Source of the DNA: Sebaldella termitidis ATCC 33386
GTDB lineage: Bacteria > Fusobacteriota > Fusobacteriia > Fusobacteriales > Leptotrichiaceae
Direction: 5' to 3'
Length of the DNA: 64,000 nt
Assembly (NCBI RefSeq): GCF_000024405.1
Contig: NC_013517.1
Span: 186,001-250,000 of the forward strand
In this document: positions 38,277 through 45,176 of the stretch, in pieces
Layout: each line of letters opens with the position of its first letter
How positions within the stretch are numbered: the first letter of the stretch is position 1
The notes under the pieces: model-generated
What the model was told of the DNA's origin: nothing
Database searches by the model: none
What the model saw: only the letters and a program-made list of their open reading frames with translations
Translations under genes and position numbers: made by a program

Positions 38277-40313
38277 ATGTATATTAATAATCGATTATTA
38301 GAAATTGTTGACTTTCTTAAAGAAAACAAAGATACCACCATAAGGGAAACAGCAGAACATCTGAACATTCTTGAACAGGCTGTGAGGTATGAAATAAATA
38401 AGCTGGACTTCATACTTGAGCTTAATAATATGCCGCTTCTCGTAAAAAATAAAAACGGAGGGCTGGGTATAGAAGATTCTCTTGATTTAGAAAGGCTCAG
38501 GGGGATTTTAGACGGGATGAATAAGGATTCAAAGGAGGAGAGACAGAGCTTTTTAAAAGCAAAATTATTTTTTGAGAAAAAGATAAATATAACAAAGTTA
38601 TCTAAAAGTCTGGGTGTAAGCAGAACAACCGTAAAAAGTGATATTCTGGAATTTGCCCGGGAAATGGAAAAATATGATTTACAGCTTGAAAATAATCAGC
38701 TGCACGGAGATGAAGGCAAGATAAGAAATCTGATTTTCAGGGAATTTTTCAGAGAGATAAGTGAGCTTTATTATCAGGATTTTTCAAATGATAAAAAAAT
38801 ACCTGCAGAAAATATTTTTTTTGAATATCTTACAGAAGCAGATATAAAGGCGGTAAAAAAATTCATAAGGGAAATATCAAGAGATCTGAAAAACAAAGAT
38901 AATAATTTTTATGAATACTTCTTTTCCTATATGGTGATTTCATATTTAAGAATAAAGCAGAAAAAAACAATTACAAATGTGGAAAATAAAAAATTTCTTC
39001 AAAGTATAGAAGAATATAAAATGATATCAAAGGATATCGGACCGCTGGAAGAAAGTCTCGGAGTAAAATACGGGAAAAATGAAAAGATGATTCTGGCAGA
39101 TTATATGCTGGGATTTCATTCATATGCATATAATACTCTTATCTTTGATAAATGGCTGGAAATAGAGCTTTTAGTAAAAGAGCTTATAAAAAATGTGAGC
39201 AGCCGGACAAATACGGATATTTTATCTGATGACGAGCTTCTGGAGGGACTGCTGAATCACATAAAACCAGCGATATACAGAATGAAAAACAGTATTTTTA
39301 CAGAGGAAGATATTTATTTTGATGAAGTGAAGGAATATAAGGAACTGCTGGAAATAGTGGGAGAATCGTTAAAACCATTGGCGGAGCTCATAGGAAGCGG
39401 TTTTTCAAATTCTGAAAAAGCATTATTTACTTTGCATTTTCTGGCTTCTATTGAAAGAAACACAAAGAAAACTGTTAAGAATATACTGTTAATATGCAGC
39501 GGGGGTTATGGAACATCAAGACTTGTTGCCGACAGAATGGAGAAGGAGTATGAAGTAAAAGTTATTGATGTAATATCATATTTTGAGCTTTTTGATACAA
39601 ATATCGAAAATGTAGATATTATTATAAGTACCATTAAAACGAAAGAAAGAGATTTTAACGGCATACCTGTTGTTACAGTTTCACCGTTTTTTACAATGAA
39701 TGACCAGAAGATACTCAGCAGTTATAATCTAGTAAAAAGACAGGTAAATGAAACAGAAATAATAGAGATACTTGATATCATAAATAAGAATATTGATAAT
39801 GAAATAAAACTGAAAAATGAATTATCAAAGGTGGTATTTCTGGATAAGAAAAAGAATGAAGACAGAGGACTTCAGGATTTTATTACAAAAGAGGAAGTTT
39901 CTATACTTGACAGCGTAAAGGATTGGCAGGAATCTATAAAAACAGCCGGAAATCTGCTTTTAAAAAATAAAAAAATTACAGAAAAATATATAGATGAAAT
40001 TATACATATAACAGAAACTTTCGGGGCACACTTTGTCTTTCAGAATGAGGTAGCAATACCGCATGGAGATGCCAGTAAAAATGTAAATATTTCATCAGTG
40101 AGTATACTGAAATTACGGAAGGCTGTGCTGTTTCCCGGTGAGAAAAAAGTGTCACTCATCTTCTTTATTTCAGCCAAGAGAAAGAAAGACCATGTAAAAA
40201 GTATTGAGGATATAATAAAATTAATGAAAAATACGGAATTTATAGAAAAAACAAATACCGTAAAAAATACGGAAGAGTTTCTTGAGCTTATAAAATTATA
40301 TTTGATGCCTTGA
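38277..40313 (+). CDS. PRD-domain transcriptional regulator with EIIB-like and EIIA domains (BglG/MtlR-like)
   Basis: 678-residue PTS-controlled activator. Two N-terminal winged-helix regions (about 5-50 and 95-140, the second with VSRTTVKSDI) bind DNA. PRD1 and PRD2 follow (about 175-395). An EIIB-like domain has Cys407 in LLICSGGYGTSR, and a C-terminal EIIA domain has His596 in AIPHGD. PRD2 keeps its two candidate phospho-histidines (LLNHIKPAIYR and LFTLHFLASIER). The corresponding positions of PRD1 appear to lack histidine. It should switch the adjoining PTS operon according to substrate and PTS phosphorylation state. Confidence 0.87.
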   Translation: MYINNRLLEIVDFLKENKDTTIRETAEHLNILEQAVRYEINKLDFILELNNMPLLVKNKNGGLGIEDSLDLERLRGILDGMNKDSKEERQSFLKAKLFFEKKINITKLSKSLGVSRTTVKSDILEFAREMEKYDLQLENNQLHGDEGKIRNLIFREFFREISELYYQDFSNDKKIPAENIFFEYLTEADIKAVKKFIREISRDLKNKDNNFYEYFFSYMVISYLRIKQKKTITNVENKKFLQSIEEYKMISKDIGPLEESLGVKYGKNEKMILADYMLGFHSYAYNTLIFDKWLEIELLVKELIKNVSSRTNTDILSDDELLEGLLNHIKPAIYRMKNSIFTEEDIYFDEVKEYKELLEIVGESLKPLAELIGSGFSNSEKALFTLHFLASIERNTKKTVKNILLICSGGYGTSRLVADRMEKEYEVKVIDVISYFELFDTNIENVDIIISTIKTKERDFNGIPVVTVSPFFTMNDQKILSSYNLVKRQVNETEIIEILDIINKNIDNEIKLKNELSKVVFLDKKKNEDRGLQDFITKEEVSILDSVKDWQESIKTAGNLLLKNKKITEKYIDEIIHITETFGAHFVFQNEVAIPHGDASKNVNISSVSILKLRKAVLFPGEKKVSLIFFISAKRKKDHVKSIEDIIKLMKNTEFIEKTNTVKNTEEFLELIKLYLMP

Positions 40314-40379
40314 ACTCATAGTATATCAGAATACGGTCAAAAAAGATTTTGAGAAATAAAACTAAAAAAGGAGTTGGAA

Positions 40380-40841
40380 ATGCTGAATAATTTTCTGGAT
40401 AACAGATGTATAGAGCTGAAGAGTAATTATGACAGCTATGAGGACTTAATAACCAATGTAAGCAGAGAACTGTTAAAATACGGTTATGTAAAGGAAAGCT
40501 TTCTTGAAAATATTCTAGGGAGGGAAAAACAGTATCCCACGGGGTTTGAGCTGGGAGGGAAATATAATATAGCAATCCCGCATACAGATATGGAAAATGT
40601 TTTGAAGCCTGTTATTTATATAGTCGTTTTGGATAGACCTGTAATGTTTAAAAGTGCTGAAGACGGCAAGTCAGATATCAGCGTGGATATTGTTTTCGTA
40701 ATATCGCTTAATGAAAAGGATAAACATATAGTAGTTCTGGAAGAATTGATGAAGATATTTTCAAAAAATGATCTGATAGAAAAAATAAAAAATTCTGAGG
40801 ATAAAGATGAATTAATACGTTTAATATATGAGGAGGAATAA
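40380..40841 (+). CDS. PTS EIIA component, galactitol/fructose type
   Basis: 153-residue cytoplasmic phosphocarrier. The phosphorylated residue is His68 in NIAIPHTD, preceded by PTGFELGG, the form seen in galactitol-type EIIA (GatA). The start is the ATG at 40380, 6 bases after AAAGGAG; a TTG six bases earlier falls too close to the ribosome site. It is followed by EIIB after 2 bases. It receives phosphate from HPr and passes it to EIIB. Confidence 0.88.
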   Translation: MLNNFLDNRCIELKSNYDSYEDLITNVSRELLKYGYVKESFLENILGREKQYPTGFELGGKYNIAIPHTDMENVLKPVIYIVVLDRPVMFKSAEDGKSDISVDIVFVISLNEKDKHIVVLEELMKIFSKNDLIEKIKNSEDKDELIRLIYEEE

Positions 40842-40843
40842 AA

Positions 40844-41134
40844 ATGAAAAAGATTTTGGTTTGCTGCGGTTCATCAATGGTGACAAGTACTGTTGCACTG
40901 AATAATATTAAAGAGGCCTGTCAGAAAGCAGGAATAGATGCTTCATTCGGGCAGTGCAAATTTGCTGAGGTACCGTTTCAGATAAAAACGTTTAATCCTG
41001 ATGTAATAGTGCCTACAGGTCCGCTGGATGAAAGCTCTGCCGGAGGAATACCCGTGGTAAAGGGAATATCGTTTGTAACTGGTGTGGGAATAGATAAAAC
41101 AATAGCGGAAATATTAGATATATTAAAGAGTTAG
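40844..41134 (+). CDS. PTS EIIB component, galactitol type
   Basis: 96-residue phosphocarrier. The N-terminal VCCGSSMVTST matches the phospho-cysteine loop of GatB-type proteins, with Cys8 as the likely phosphorylated residue. AGGAGG precedes the ATG. It is sandwiched between EIIA and EIIC and is therefore the dedicated partner of this permease. Confidence 0.88.
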   Translation: MKKILVCCGSSMVTSTVALNNIKEACQKAGIDASFGQCKFAEVPFQIKTFNPDVIVPTGPLDESSAGGIPVVKGISFVTGVGIDKTIAEILDILKS

Positions 41135-41146
41135 GGAGTGTTGTGT

Positions 41147-42412
41147 ATGGAAATGGTAATAAAGGGGCTGCAGTTCATAGCATCACTGGGGCCGATGGTA
41201 ATGATGCCGATAATTATATTTGTAATAGGATTAATATTCAGATTAAAAATAAGTACGTTATTTAGATCTTCAATACTTGTGGGAGTGGGTTTTGCCGGGG
41301 TAAATATGGCGGTAGGATTTTTTATATCAGGTGTATCGGAGCCTATACAGAAAATGGTAGGTTTTTGGGGATTAAGAACAGATATAATGGATGTAGGATG
41401 GCCGGCGAGAGCTGCGGCTACATGGTCTTTTCCCATGGCTGCAGTAGTAATTCTTGCAGTTTTGGGAGTAAATGTATTAATGCTTGTAATTAAGAAAACA
41501 AGATGTGTAATGGTGGATTTCTGGAGTTATAACCACTTTATATTTACGGCAGCTCTTGTATGGTACAGTACTCATAACGCAATTCTTGCAATAACAGGTG
41601 CGGTTTTAACTGCTGTTATTACATTTAAGCTTGCAGACTGGACAGCACCGCTTGCAGAAAGCTATTTCGGACTTCCGGGTGTATCTTTCCCTACGTCGAA
41701 TTCTGTTAACTTCGCACCTATAGCATGGTTAATGGAGAAAATTTATAACAAAATACCGGGATTCAGAGATCTGAACGCTAATCCCGAACACATACAGAAA
41801 AGATTCGGAGTATTTGGGGAACCGCTTTTTATGGGGATTGTTCTTGGTTCTTTGATAGGTATTCTTGCAAAAGAGAGTGTCGGAAATATCATGATAATAG
41901 CAATGACAACTGCTTCTGCAATGATACTTGTTCCTAAAATGATGCAGGTAATAATGGAAGGACTTATGCCTTTTGCAAACGGGATAAGGGAGATACTGAA
42001 CAATAAGTTTCAGGGAAATAATTTTACAATTGGTATAGATGCAGCACTTACAATAGCTAATCCTTCTGTAATAGCAGTGGGGATATTAATGGTTCCCACA
42101 ACGTTGATAATGGCGACTGTACTTCCCGGAAACAGACTTCTTCCGCTTCCGGATATAGCTTATATGTCAATGTGGGTAGCAGCATGGCCCGTAGCATTTC
42201 ATAAAGGAAACATAATAAGAGGATACATAACAACGGTTATTTGTACTGCTTTAATGCTGCTTGTAGCTACGAATATGGCATATATTCATACACAGCTTGC
42301 AATTGCCGGAGGATTTGAAATTCCAGCCGGTACGCTTATTTCTACAGAGGATGCGGGAACACACCTTCTGAGCTGGGTATTATGGAAGCTGTCGTTATTG
42401 TTCAAATTCTAA
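41147..42412 (+). CDS. PTS EIIC component, galactitol family
   Basis: 421-residue permease with about ten membrane segments, similar in design to GatC/SgcC-type EIIC proteins. Recognisable features are LGPMVMMPIIIF in the first helix and repeated Gly/Pro-rich loops such as PGNRLLPLPDIAYM. The start is the ATG at 41147, 8 bases after GGGAG; an in-frame GTG at 41138 overlaps the ribosome site. The sugar cannot be read from the sequence; the downstream enzymes suggest a hexonic acid or its lactone. Confidence 0.87.
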   Translation: MEMVIKGLQFIASLGPMVMMPIIIFVIGLIFRLKISTLFRSSILVGVGFAGVNMAVGFFISGVSEPIQKMVGFWGLRTDIMDVGWPARAAATWSFPMAAVVILAVLGVNVLMLVIKKTRCVMVDFWSYNHFIFTAALVWYSTHNAILAITGAVLTAVITFKLADWTAPLAESYFGLPGVSFPTSNSVNFAPIAWLMEKIYNKIPGFRDLNANPEHIQKRFGVFGEPLFMGIVLGSLIGILAKESVGNIMIIAMTTASAMILVPKMMQVIMEGLMPFANGIREILNNKFQGNNFTIGIDAALTIANPSVIAVGILMVPTTLIMATVLPGNRLLPLPDIAYMSMWVAAWPVAFHKGNIIRGYITTVICTALMLLVATNMAYIHTQLAIAGGFEIPAGTLISTEDAGTHLLSWVLWKLSLLFKF

Positions 42413-42441
42413 TGCAGAAAAATACATAGAAAGGTGATTTT

Positions 42442-43353
42442 ATGAAAAGTGTAAGAACAGTCTGCGGAAAAATTTCCGGTGATAGTATGGGATACACATT
42501 AGCACACGAACACTTGATAGTTTCACCGGAGCTTTCTGATAAAAAATATGATGACTACAGACTTCTGGATATAAATTTAATGTGTATGGAAGTGGAAAAA
42601 TTCAAACAAAAATCAGGGAAAACCATAGTGGAGATGACCCCGTTGAATTACGGGAGAGATCCATTGAAATACAGAGAAATAGCCATACGGGAAAATATAA
42701 ATATAATCTGCTGTACAGGCTTTCATAAAGAGGAATTTTTACCGGAGCTGGCTTTTAAGCTGACTGAAACTGACCTTATAAATATGCTTTTGGAGGAAAT
42801 AAACAATGGGATGGACGGTACTGATATCTGTCCCGGAGTTATAAAATGCGGAACCAGTTATAATAATATTACAGAAACAGAAGTAAAGATAATAAAAGCA
42901 GCGGCTAAGGTACATATACTAACGGGAATTCCGGTAAGTACACATTGTGATAAAGGAACAATGATGCTGGAACAGGGAGAACTTTTAGTAAAAAACGGAG
43001 TAAAGCCTGAAAATATACTGCTGGGACATACAGATGTCCAGAAAGATTTAAATATACAGCTGGAAGCTTTGAAAAGAGGATTTAATATTTTAACAGATCA
43101 TGTAGGGCGTGAACTTGATAATATTGATGAAGACAGGATAAGAAAAATAGAAATAATGATCAGGGAAGGGTTTGGAGGTCAGTTATTTCTTTCAGGTGAT
43201 ATGGGTAAAAAAGACTATGTCACAGCCTATGGAGGCAGGCCGGGACTTGATTATATATTGGGAGTATTTAAGGATAAGTTTGTCAGGGAAATAGGCAGGG
43301 AATATTTTGATAAGATCACGATAGACAATCCAAAAAGATTTTTCAGCTTTTGA
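42442..43353 (+). CDS. Phosphotriesterase-like hydrolase (putative phospho-sugar lactonase)
   Basis: 303-residue amidohydrolase-superfamily protein of the phosphotriesterase-homology group. All binuclear-metal ligands are visible: His22 and His24 (AHEHL), Lys135 (the lysine to be carboxylated, VIKCG), His168 (STHCD), His196 (LGHTD) and Asp253 (LSGDMG). Characterised relatives in sugar PTS operons hydrolyse phosphorylated aldonolactones, so a lactonase acting on a phospho-aldonolactone is the best guess. A true organophosphate esterase role is unlikely given the context. AAAGGTGA precedes the ATG. Confidence 0.82.
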   Translation: MKSVRTVCGKISGDSMGYTLAHEHLIVSPELSDKKYDDYRLLDINLMCMEVEKFKQKSGKTIVEMTPLNYGRDPLKYREIAIRENINIICCTGFHKEEFLPELAFKLTETDLINMLLEEINNGMDGTDICPGVIKCGTSYNNITETEVKIIKAAAKVHILTGIPVSTHCDKGTMMLEQGELLVKNGVKPENILLGHTDVQKDLNIQLEALKRGFNILTDHVGRELDNIDEDRIRKIEIMIREGFGGQLFLSGDMGKKDYVTAYGGRPGLDYILGVFKDKFVREIGREYFDKITIDNPKRFFSF

Positions 43354-43400
43354 ACTAAATATAAAATTTTATAAACTGCAAGAAATGAGAGGAGCCGAAG

Positions 43401-44546
43401 ATGAAAATATCATCATTTAAGATATATGAAGTGAAGCCCAGATGGATTTTTATAAAAATAATAACTGATGAAGGAATAGAAGGCTGGGGTGAAATGATTT
43501 CGGGAACTAAAACCGAAACTGTTACAGCATGTGCCAATGAGATGTGTAAAAAATTATTAGGACGTGATCCTTTTGATATAGAAGCATTATGGCAGGAATT
43601 ATACAGATCGTTTTTCAGAGGCGGGCCTGTGAATATGACCGTAATTTCAGGAATAGAAACAGCATTATGGGATATAAAAGGAAAGTATTATAATATGCCT
43701 GTTTATGAGTTTTTGGGCGGAAAAGTCAGGGATAAACTGAAAGTATACTCATGGATCGGAGGGGACAGACCAAATAATGTAGCCGAGGAGGCGAAGCAGC
43801 GTTTTGATCAGGGATTTACAGCAGTGAAAATGAATGCTACAGAGGAGCTTCACTATATAGATTCATATGAAAAAGTAGATCAGGTACTGGAAAGAATGAA
43901 TTCAATAAAGGAACTGCTTGGTAATAAAATACAGGTAGGTATTGATTTTCACGGAAGAGTTCATAAACCTATGGCAAAAATACTTATCAAGGAGCTGGAG
44001 CCTTTCAGACCGATGTTTATAGAAGAGCCGGTGCTTCCCGAGAACTGGGATGCAATAATTGATACAGCTAAAAATTCTCCCATACCAATAGCTACAGGAG
44101 AAAGATTAAGTACAAGATGGGAATTCAAAAGATTGTTTAACAACAATTCCGTGGATATAATCCAGCCGGATGTAGCTCTTGCCGGAGGAATACTGGAAAC
44201 AAGAAAAATAGCTGCAGCAGCGGAAATGTATGATATAGCAGTAGCACCTCATGCACCTTACGGTCCTGTAGCTCTTGCAGCTACATTACAGCTTGATATG
44301 TGTACGCCTAACGTTTTTATACAGGAGCAGAGTCTTGGGATTCACTATAATAAAGGGTTTGATCTGATAGATTTTGTAAAGAACAAAGAGATATTCATGT
44401 TTAAGGATGGTTATCTGGATGTACCCGAAAAACCGGGGCTGGGAATAGAAATTGATGAAGAGCTTGTAAAGAAAGTGTCAGCAGAAGGACTCGTCTGGAC
44501 TAATCCAAAATGGAAAAACTATGACGGAACTATAGCTGAATGGTAG
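43401..44546 (+). CDS. dgoD: D-galactonate dehydratase-like enolase-superfamily enzyme
   Basis: 381-residue member of the mandelate-racemase/muconate-lactonising subgroup, close to E. coli DgoD by eye (WGGE-type opening, ALWDIKGK, YSWIGGDRP, EQSLGIHYNKG and the AEW ending are shared). Metal ligands are Asp182, Glu208 and Glu234, and the acid-base residues His184 and His284, each one position below the E. coli numbering. It should dehydrate a galactonate-type acid to a 2-keto-3-deoxy acid. Whether it accepts the 6-phosphate form, as the operon implies, is unknown. GAGAGGAGC precedes the ATG. Confidence 0.87.
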   Translation: MKISSFKIYEVKPRWIFIKIITDEGIEGWGEMISGTKTETVTACANEMCKKLLGRDPFDIEALWQELYRSFFRGGPVNMTVISGIETALWDIKGKYYNMPVYEFLGGKVRDKLKVYSWIGGDRPNNVAEEAKQRFDQGFTAVKMNATEELHYIDSYEKVDQVLERMNSIKELLGNKIQVGIDFHGRVHKPMAKILIKELEPFRPMFIEEPVLPENWDAIIDTAKNSPIPIATGERLSTRWEFKRLFNNNSVDIIQPDVALAGGILETRKIAAAAEMYDIAVAPHAPYGPVALAATLQLDMCTPNVFIQEQSLGIHYNKGFDLIDFVKNKEIFMFKDGYLDVPEKPGLGIEIDEELVKKVSAEGLVWTNPKWKNYDGTIAEW

Positions 44547-44567
44547 TAGTTAAAGGCAGGAGGAAAA

Positions 44568-45176
44568 ATGAATAAGTCAAAAATAACCGGGATTTTGAGA
44601 AATGTAAAAAAAGAGGATGTCCTAAAAGTAGGGGAAATACTGATAAAACACAATATCAAGGATTTTGAGGTAACATATAATACAAAGGATTCATTGGAAA
44701 TAGTAAAAATGCTGAAAAAAGAGTTTCCAGAAGCCAGAATAGGAATGGGCACCATATTAAATGTGGAAGAATTAAAAAAAGCCGAAGAATCCGGGGCAGA
44801 ATTTATTCTTACACCATCAGTGAATGAAGAGGTACTGAGATATTCCGGAAAAAATAATATTGATCTGATAACGGGAGTTTTTTCACCGAGTGAAGTCGCA
44901 CTTGCTTTGAGATACGGCTTTAATTATCTGAAATTATTTCCTGCCATTGACCTTCCCGATTCATATATAAATAATCTCATGGGACCGTTTGATAAAGTGG
45001 AATTTATGGCTGTGGGCGGTGTAGAGAAAGATAATATAACAGATTTTTTCAAAGCAGGGTTCAAATCTGTGGGAATGGGATCAAGTCTTATAAAAAAATC
45101 GTATCTGGAAAGTAAGGATTGGGAAAAGTTGGAAAAGCATGTTAAGGAAATAGCAGAAATAATAGAAACTGTGTGA
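44568..45176 (+). CDS. 2-dehydro-3-deoxy-6-phospho-gluconate/galactonate aldolase
   Basis: 202-residue class I aldolase of the KDPG family that cleaves 2-keto-3-deoxy-6-phosphohexonate to pyruvate and glyceraldehyde 3-phosphate. The Schiff-base lysine is Lys122 in YLKLFPA. Other signatures are FEVTYNT (catalytic Glu region), IGMGTIL, ILTPSVN and AVGGV. DgoA is the closest functional analogue given the adjoining dgoD. It lies 21 bases after dgoD with AGGAGG before the ATG and is the last gene of the operon. Confidence 0.9.
   Translation: MNKSKITGILRNVKKEDVLKVGEILIKHNIKDFEVTYNTKDSLEIVKMLKKEFPEARIGMGTILNVEELKKAEESGAEFILTPSVNEEVLRYSGKNNIDLITGVFSPSEVALALRYGFNYLKLFPAIDLPDSYINNLMGPFDKVEFMAVGGVEKDNITDFFKAGFKSVGMGSSLIKKSYLESKDWEKLEKHVKEIAEIIETV

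Follow-up and report, generated by a model that had tools for sequence, protein, structure and literature searches.

The phosphotransferase system (PTS) is already known to feed both lactones and sugar acids into metabolism. In the L-ascorbate system Ula (UlaABC, UlaG), the PTS imports a lactone and a phospho-lactonase then opens the phospho-lactone. The D-glucosaminate system DgaABCDEF of Salmonella (Miller et al. 2013), as far as its description in PMC9529869 goes, takes up a sugar acid through a PTS and does without a kinase. The De Ley-Doudoroff route for D-galactonate (DgoTDKA) includes DgoK, a kinase for 2-keto-3-deoxy-galactonate (KDGal). Here we examine an operon of Sebaldella termitidis ATCC 33386 at positions 38,277 to 45,176 of a 64,000-nucleotide stretch of contig NC_013517.1 (positions 186,001 to 250,000 of the forward strand; the window), which encodes a regulator, PTS components EIIA, EIIB and EIIC, a phosphotriesterase (PTE)-like hydrolase, a DgoD-like dehydratase and an aldolase. 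Sequence comparisons indicate that this is quite probably a kinase-free, PTS-fed operon for the breakdown of D-galactonate, its 1,4-lactone or both, or else of a close stereoisomer; it would work like Dga and Ula but combine components of the Gat, PTE, DgoD and Eda types.

In the proposed pathway, EIIABC would import D-galactonate and/or the 1,4-lactone and phosphorylate C6 with phosphate derived from phosphoenolpyruvate, and because the substrate would be phosphorylated at uptake, a separate kinase would be unneeded. Should the lactone be what enters, its phosphorylated form would be opened by the PTE-like hydrolase, which has a binuclear metal site, and the DgoD-like enzyme would convert 6-phospho-galactonate to 2-keto-3-deoxy-6-phospho-galactonate (KDPGal), the substrate phosphate being held by an S-G-T-K-T loop in the capping domain. 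The aldolase would cleave KDPGal to pyruvate and glyceraldehyde-3-phosphate, and the PRD regulator may sense the phosphorylation state of the PTS and/or substrate flux. The phospho-acid core of this scheme (phosphorylation at uptake and a phospho-acid dehydratase) appears well supported, and from the same comparisons we infer which substrate is used, that C6 carries the phosphate, that a lactonase acts and what the loop does.

Conservation of the operon and distribution of kinases

An EIIC alignment, used to search named genomes, recovered 31 EIIC-orthologue loci (57-71% identity) in Bacilli, Clostridia, Erysipelotrichia and Coriobacteriia. DgoD adjoins EIIC in 30 of them, the exception (L056) stopping at a contig edge, and an aldolase was found at every locus whose contig reaches far enough. 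An intact PTE-like gene is present in 28 of the 31 loci at variable positions; the loci L056 and L073 are truncated, and the PTE frame is broken in L071 (L071:11888-12680), in an otherwise intact operon that retains the PTS, the dehydratase and the aldolase. Gene order and regulators vary between loci, the regulator being of the PRD type or, in L047 and L051, of the sigma-54/LevR type, but the functional set is constant. Conservation of this set at about 30 loci across several phyla rules out a chance gene cluster; near gene-for-gene counterparts of the operon occur in many gut bacteria and fermenters. A dedicated enzyme I (EI; PF02896) lies beside DgoD in L050 and L051, and a dedicated HPr is encoded, also beside DgoD, in L050 and L058; such EI and/or HPr genes within single-sugar PTS operons occur at L050:12437-14536, L051:12527-14242 and L058:12539-14553.

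A preliminary description of this DNA had stated that no kinase is encoded and had called for a search of other genomes for the same gene set and for the absence of DgoK. The set recurs, as described above, and DgoK (PF05035) had no match anywhere in the source genome (4.49 Mb, three contigs) in a genome-wide profile search. Genome-wide searches, in which E. coli and Caulobacter served as positive controls, likewise found this De Ley-Doudoroff kinase in 0 of 20 carrier genomes (21 including the source genome), and none of the EIIC-orthologue loci encodes it. The possibility that its absence is a local artefact is thereby ruled out. The statement thus holds for the operon and, as regards DgoK, for the whole genome, but not for KdgK-like kinases of the PfkB family, two of which are encoded elsewhere. 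A KdgK-like PfkB was not found in 13 of 25 carrier genomes at E<=1e-20, which rules out a PfkB kinase for 2-keto-3-deoxygluconate as a general substitute, though one might still act in the source genome; several of these carrier genomes are drafts, so the absence from any single carrier is weaker evidence than the overall pattern.

A separate clade of DgoD-like dehydratases

The dehydratase is 50% identical to E. coli DgoD. We aligned 60 DgoD proteins and built a tree from them; 37 are PTS-linked, and the other 23 are associated with kinases or different genes. The PTS-linked proteins make up one side of a 100/100 branch, apart from the kinase-linked ones. Nineteen alignment columns separate PTS-linked from other DgoDs, and seven of these clade-specific sites fall within residues 34-45, a clustering reached in 0 of 20000 random placements. 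Positions 34-38 are fixed as S-G-T-K-T in the PTS-linked clade versus V/I-E-G-R-A in kinase-linked DgoD, where the loop Glu occupies all 21 rows covering the site; the PTS-linked loop has lost this acidic residue and gained a Ser/Gly/Thr/Lys/Thr run. In a predicted model (mean pLDDT 84), the loop links strand 27-33 with helix 38-50 and sits at the N-terminus of the helix; the best fold match of the dehydratase model is 3rra, PRK14017 from Ralstonia.

In the enolase superfamily, the N-terminal capping domain determines substrate specificity (PMC9795676). The modelled position of the loop at a helix N-terminus resembles that of anion-binding loops, and S-G-T-K-T may be the site that binds the C6 phosphate. 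It is rather likely that the whole clade, annotated at present as D-galactonate dehydratase, acts on 6-phospho-galactonate and has evolved a capping loop that binds the phosphate, defining a widespread kinase-free, PTS-fed galactonate/galactonolactone route; the clade has probably changed substrate. The earlier proposal that phosphorylation occurs at uptake and that the dehydratase takes a 6-phospho-aldonate gains support from the conservation of the kinase-free set across phyla, from the lack of DgoK in all 21 genomes, from this well-separated clade with its fixed loop, and from the dedicated EI and HPr at some loci.

Three or more distinct EIICs accompany the clade. Enterococcus plasmids and genomes other than the E. 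faecium plasmid named below combine the same dehydratase with a second EIIC group and have no PTE, and in two further genomes the clade is paired with a third EIIC of Gat type; these two also encode a 2-hydroxyacid dehydrogenase and an altronate/galactarate-type dehydratase, again with no kinase. At L120:3447-5896 and L121:3386-5839, operons with a PTS-linked DgoD include genes for a SAF-domain protein, a dehydratase of the altronate/galactarate type and a 2-hydroxyacid dehydrogenase, possibly representing a second phospho-acid branch. In Enterococcus the pathway is mobile and plasmid-borne, with insertion sequence elements nearby (L039, L081, L082); the E. faecium plasmid pHVH-V1836-3 (L039) carries the gene set.

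The aldolase and the likely substrate

The aldolase passes the Eda family TIGR01182 (174.7 versus 156 bits), falls below the cut-off of the DgoA subfamily PRK09140 (126 versus 207 bits) and is only 26% identical to E. coli DgoA. The site T161/V154 distinguishes aldolases for 2-keto-3-deoxy-6-phosphogluconate (KDPG) from those for KDPGal (PMC4915726). In our alignment, every PTS-linked aldolase has Val or Ile at this site, E. coli DgoA likewise has Val, and several PfkB-linked aldolases have Thr; the strand-1 Pro typical of KDPG aldolase is absent from the window aldolase. The stereo-position and the missing Pro together favor a galacto-configured keto-acid, and 6-phospho-galactonate is therefore the likeliest substrate of the dehydratase, as far as these residues indicate.

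The same phosphorylated route could also start from another acid that gives KDPGal or KDPG, such as 6-phospho D-talonate, D-gulonate, D-idonate, D-gluconate or a pentonate. Dehydration removes the stereochemistry at C2 and C3, and several acids therefore give the same keto-acid; talonate, gulonate and idonate would all yield the product proposed here. Mycoplasma relatives of the PTE, in work by Korczynska et al. from 2014, are said to act on pentono-lactone phosphates, which would be in keeping with such a substrate, as would the reported conversion of D-idonate to KDGal. The latter is described in PMC12632266. Moreover, some operons add an Edd/IlvD-type or an altronate/galactarate-type dehydratase, and the substrate range therefore differs between species. 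However, the closest characterized dehydratase is a D-galactonate dehydratase whose catalytic residues are all kept here, and the aldolase carries the KDPGal-type residue; we consider another substrate unlikely. Olsenella-type operons (L060:13473-15113; L061, L062, L068 and L070) encode an extra Edd/IlvD-type dehydratase and a D-2-hydroxyacid dehydrogenase.

The PTE-like hydrolase

The nearest solved structure to the PTE-like hydrolase is 3pnz, from a Listeria PTS operon. The characterized Mycoplasma phospho-furanose lactonase family is encoded with a complete PTS, and in Listeria the 3pnz homologue shares a PTS operon with a KDGP aldolase gene, so that coupling of this hydrolase family to the PTS is recurrent. 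Our best guess from these relatives is that the PTE-like protein opens 6-phospho-galactonolactone to 6-phospho-galactonate. Assignment to the curated phospho-furanose lactonase family NF045706 was rejected, the window PTE scoring 140.8 bits against a cut-off of 630. The phosphate ligands reported for the Mycoplasma enzyme MS53_0025 are K217, K244, Y245, R275 and Y278; two of the five are kept in the window PTE, R275 (as K/R) and Y278, with numbering transferred through relatives.

The hydrolase might alternatively be a repair or side enzyme, for example one that reopens a spontaneously formed phospho-lactone or acts on an unrelated ester. This would be consistent with the partial conservation of the phosphate ligands, the interrupted frame in L071 and four Enterococcus-type loci that have the PTS, dehydratase and aldolase but no PTE. 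Its presence in 28 of the 31 EIIC-orthologue loci, at varying positions, its invariant metal ligands and the recurrent PTS coupling argue against such a role, which we regard as somewhat unlikely. The phospho-lactone hydrolase of the preliminary description is plausible in view of the Mycoplasma relatives in PTS operons, although only two phosphate ligands are retained and the Enterococcus branch has the core without a PTE.

Related genes occur elsewhere in the same genome. A second operon at G000:C1:3340433-3346844 (L041:2433-8844; also L042) encodes a related PRD regulator (42%), EIIA, ascorbate-type EIIB and EIIC, a PTE-like hydrolase (36%), a protein of the creatininase family and an aldolase that shares 58% identity with that of the window. 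It is similar to the operon that holds the 3pnz homologue in Listeria (L079). There are two more PTE-family genes, in L044 (G000:C1:2660000-2675000) and L043 (G000:C1:408000-423000), one beside a UlaA-type EIIC and EIIB without an aldolase and the other in an unrelated cluster.

Phosphorylated or unphosphorylated route

Several observations weigh against the proposed route. The window PTE does not retain K217, K244 and Y245 of the Mycoplasma lactonase; the dehydratase clears the cut-off of PRK14017, the NCBIfam equivalog for dehydratases of unphosphorylated galactonate, by a wide margin (612 versus 311 bits); the two KdgK-like PfkB genes of the source genome lie outside the operon, in other clusters; and most PTS-linked loci were found via EIIC, so that their PTS linkage arises by selection. 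The equivalog score and the KdgK-like genes, one of which (near 4.319 Mb) adjoins its own aldolase, would be consistent with an unphosphorylated route, in which another permease brings in galactonate, DgoD acts on the free acid, KDGal is phosphorylated by a KdgK-type PfkB encoded outside the operon, and the PTS takes up a different sugar under the same regulator.

Searches with DgoD as the only query, made with no selection for PTS linkage, provide a less biased test; they covered about 400 genomes of Bacillota and 396 of Actinomycetota (the latter with flanks of only 1.5 kb). Among genomes that were new to the analysis (G370, G237, G361 and G814), every S-G-T-[KR]-T copy is PTS-linked, and none of 25 E-G-type copies is, many of these adjoining DgoK or PfkB kinases. 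In the Bacillota search the difference was significant (5/5 versus 0/14; Fisher test, p = 8.6e-5, counting one genome known beforehand). The unphosphorylated route is further opposed by the carriers, about half of which have no KdgK-like kinase and none DgoK, by the persistent linkage of PTS and DgoD across phyla with three EIIC types, and by the fixed capping loop peculiar to the PTS-linked dehydratase. No other sugar enzyme is common to the operons, and the second KdgK-like gene of the source genome (near 0.726 Mb), like the first, is in a different cluster, one without an operon homologue. We therefore regard the unphosphorylated route as very unlikely.

Features of the operon

Inspection of open reading frames together with Pfam and NCBIfam profile searches located all seven genes, near-contiguous on one strand (Table 1). 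The domain matches bear out the earlier outline of a PRD regulator, galactitol-type EIIABC, hydrolase, dehydratase and aldolase, and both active sites described there as complete are so throughout the 25 operon copies: invariant are the binuclear metal ligands H22, H24, K135, H168, H196 and D253 of the hydrolase, and D182, H184, E208, E234, D257, H284 and E309 of the dehydratase (metal ligands plus the catalytic His and Asp). A coaE-like gene upstream and a gene for an NAD(P)-binding protein downstream are both on the opposite strand, and the seven-gene set therefore stands alone. Scans for sigma-70 promoters and terminators gave a signal no better than shuffled sequence.

Table 1. Features of the operon, in window coordinates
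Feature	Position	Strand	Supporting matches
PRD/Mga-type regulator with EIIB-like and EIIA-like domains, PTS-controlled	38277..40313	+	PF00874, PF05043, PF02302, PF00359
PTS EIIA, galactitol/fructose type	40380..40841	+	PF00359 (PTS_EIIA_2) 119.9 bits; phosphorylatable His in AIPHTDM
PTS EIIB, galactitol type	40844..41134	+	PF02302 (PTS_IIB); phosphorylatable Cys in VCCGSSM
PTS EIIC, Gat family, distinct group	41147..42412	+	PF03611 (EIIC-GAT) 231.6 bits
PTE-like amidohydrolase, proposed 6-phospho-aldonolactone hydrolase	42442..43353	+	PF02126 167.2 bits
DgoD-like dehydratase, PTS-linked clade, proposed 6-phospho-galactonate dehydratase	43401..44546	+	MR_MLE_N 74.6, MR_MLE_C 223.3 bits
Dehydratase codons 34-38 (S-G-T-K-T), proposed phosphate-binding loop	43500..43514	+	fixed in PTS-linked clade
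Class I 2-keto-3-deoxy-6-phospho-aldonate aldolase, KDPGal-like stereo-position (AVGGV)	44568..45176	+	PF01081 (KDPG/KHG aldolase) 148.0 bits

The PTS belongs to the Gat family, having the EIIC-GAT fold family, separate EIIA and EIIB, and intact active His and Cys. The EIIC falls below the cut-off of the galactitol-specific TIGR00827 (397.8 versus 542.2 bits) and shares about 40% identity with other Gat EIICs; the best NCBIfam match of EIIB is galactitol IIB, under its cut-off. The His motif of EIIA is retained across all sampled loci having EIIA, and the active Cys in every EIIB found. The most likely starts are ATG 40380 rather than TTG 40374 for EIIA and ATG 41147 rather than GTG 41138 for EIIC. 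An orthologue of the PRD regulator, 89% identical, lies at the same place in G089.

Comparison with known systems

The literature covered, in part through titles and abstracts and with subscription papers mostly outside it, gave no description of a galactonate route fed by a PTS or of a dehydratase for 6-phosphogalactonate; this does not prove absence, and it agrees with the initial impression of a variant pathway not known to be described. If the proposed pathway is correct, many proteins of gut bacteria (Enterococcus, Lactobacillaceae, Clostridia, Olsenella, Sebaldella) are misannotated as D-galactonate dehydratase, their substrate being phosphorylated, and galactonate use by anaerobic Gram-positives without DgoK would be explained. 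A member of the enolase superfamily would join the PTS-fed sugar-acid routes, and the S-G-T-K-T and E-G-R-A loops would offer a clean natural pair for studying the gain of substrate phosphorylation.

The pathway would also suggest a function for the accessory "galactitol PTS" and "galactonate" genes enriched in blood or clinical isolates of Enterococcus faecalis (PMC6042284) and E. cecorum (PMC10117131). The genes comprise gat EIIABC with dgoD, plus eda in E. faecalis, and very likely belong to the same operon family as that of the window; the parts seen itemize the PTS and the galactonate enzymes separately and propose no joint phosphorylated pathway.

Like E. coli dgoRKADT (DgoT, DgoD, DgoK, DgoA), the operon combines a homologous dehydratase with a class I KDPGal/KDPG aldolase, and the carbon logic of both ends in pyruvate and glyceraldehyde-3-phosphate. 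It differs from dgoRKADT in having a PTS instead of a proton symporter, a PRD regulator instead of DgoR, no DgoK, an additional PTE-like hydrolase, and a dehydratase that belongs to a different clade and has a changed loop. The PTE operons of the Mycoplasma MS53_0025 and Listeria 3pnz types share the pairing of a PTE-family hydrolase with a complete PTS, followed in Listeria by a KDGP aldolase, but have a UlaA-type EIIC and no DgoD; the Mycoplasma operon has UlaD and epimerases and the Listeria operon creatininase-like and isomerase genes, unlike that of the window.

With Ula, the operon would share PTS-fed uptake of a lactone and a phospho-lactonase, although UlaG comes from another hydrolase family and Ula continues via decarboxylation and epimerases rather than dehydration and aldol cleavage. 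With Dga, so far as the available account describes it, the likeness lies in uptake and phosphorylation of a sugar acid by the PTS, formation of a keto-deoxy-phospho-acid and cleavage by an aldolase; Dga does so with a mannose-family PTS and a pyridoxal phosphate-dependent ammonia-lyase, whereas the window operon has a Gat-family PTS, an enolase-superfamily dehydratase and a PTE-like hydrolase.

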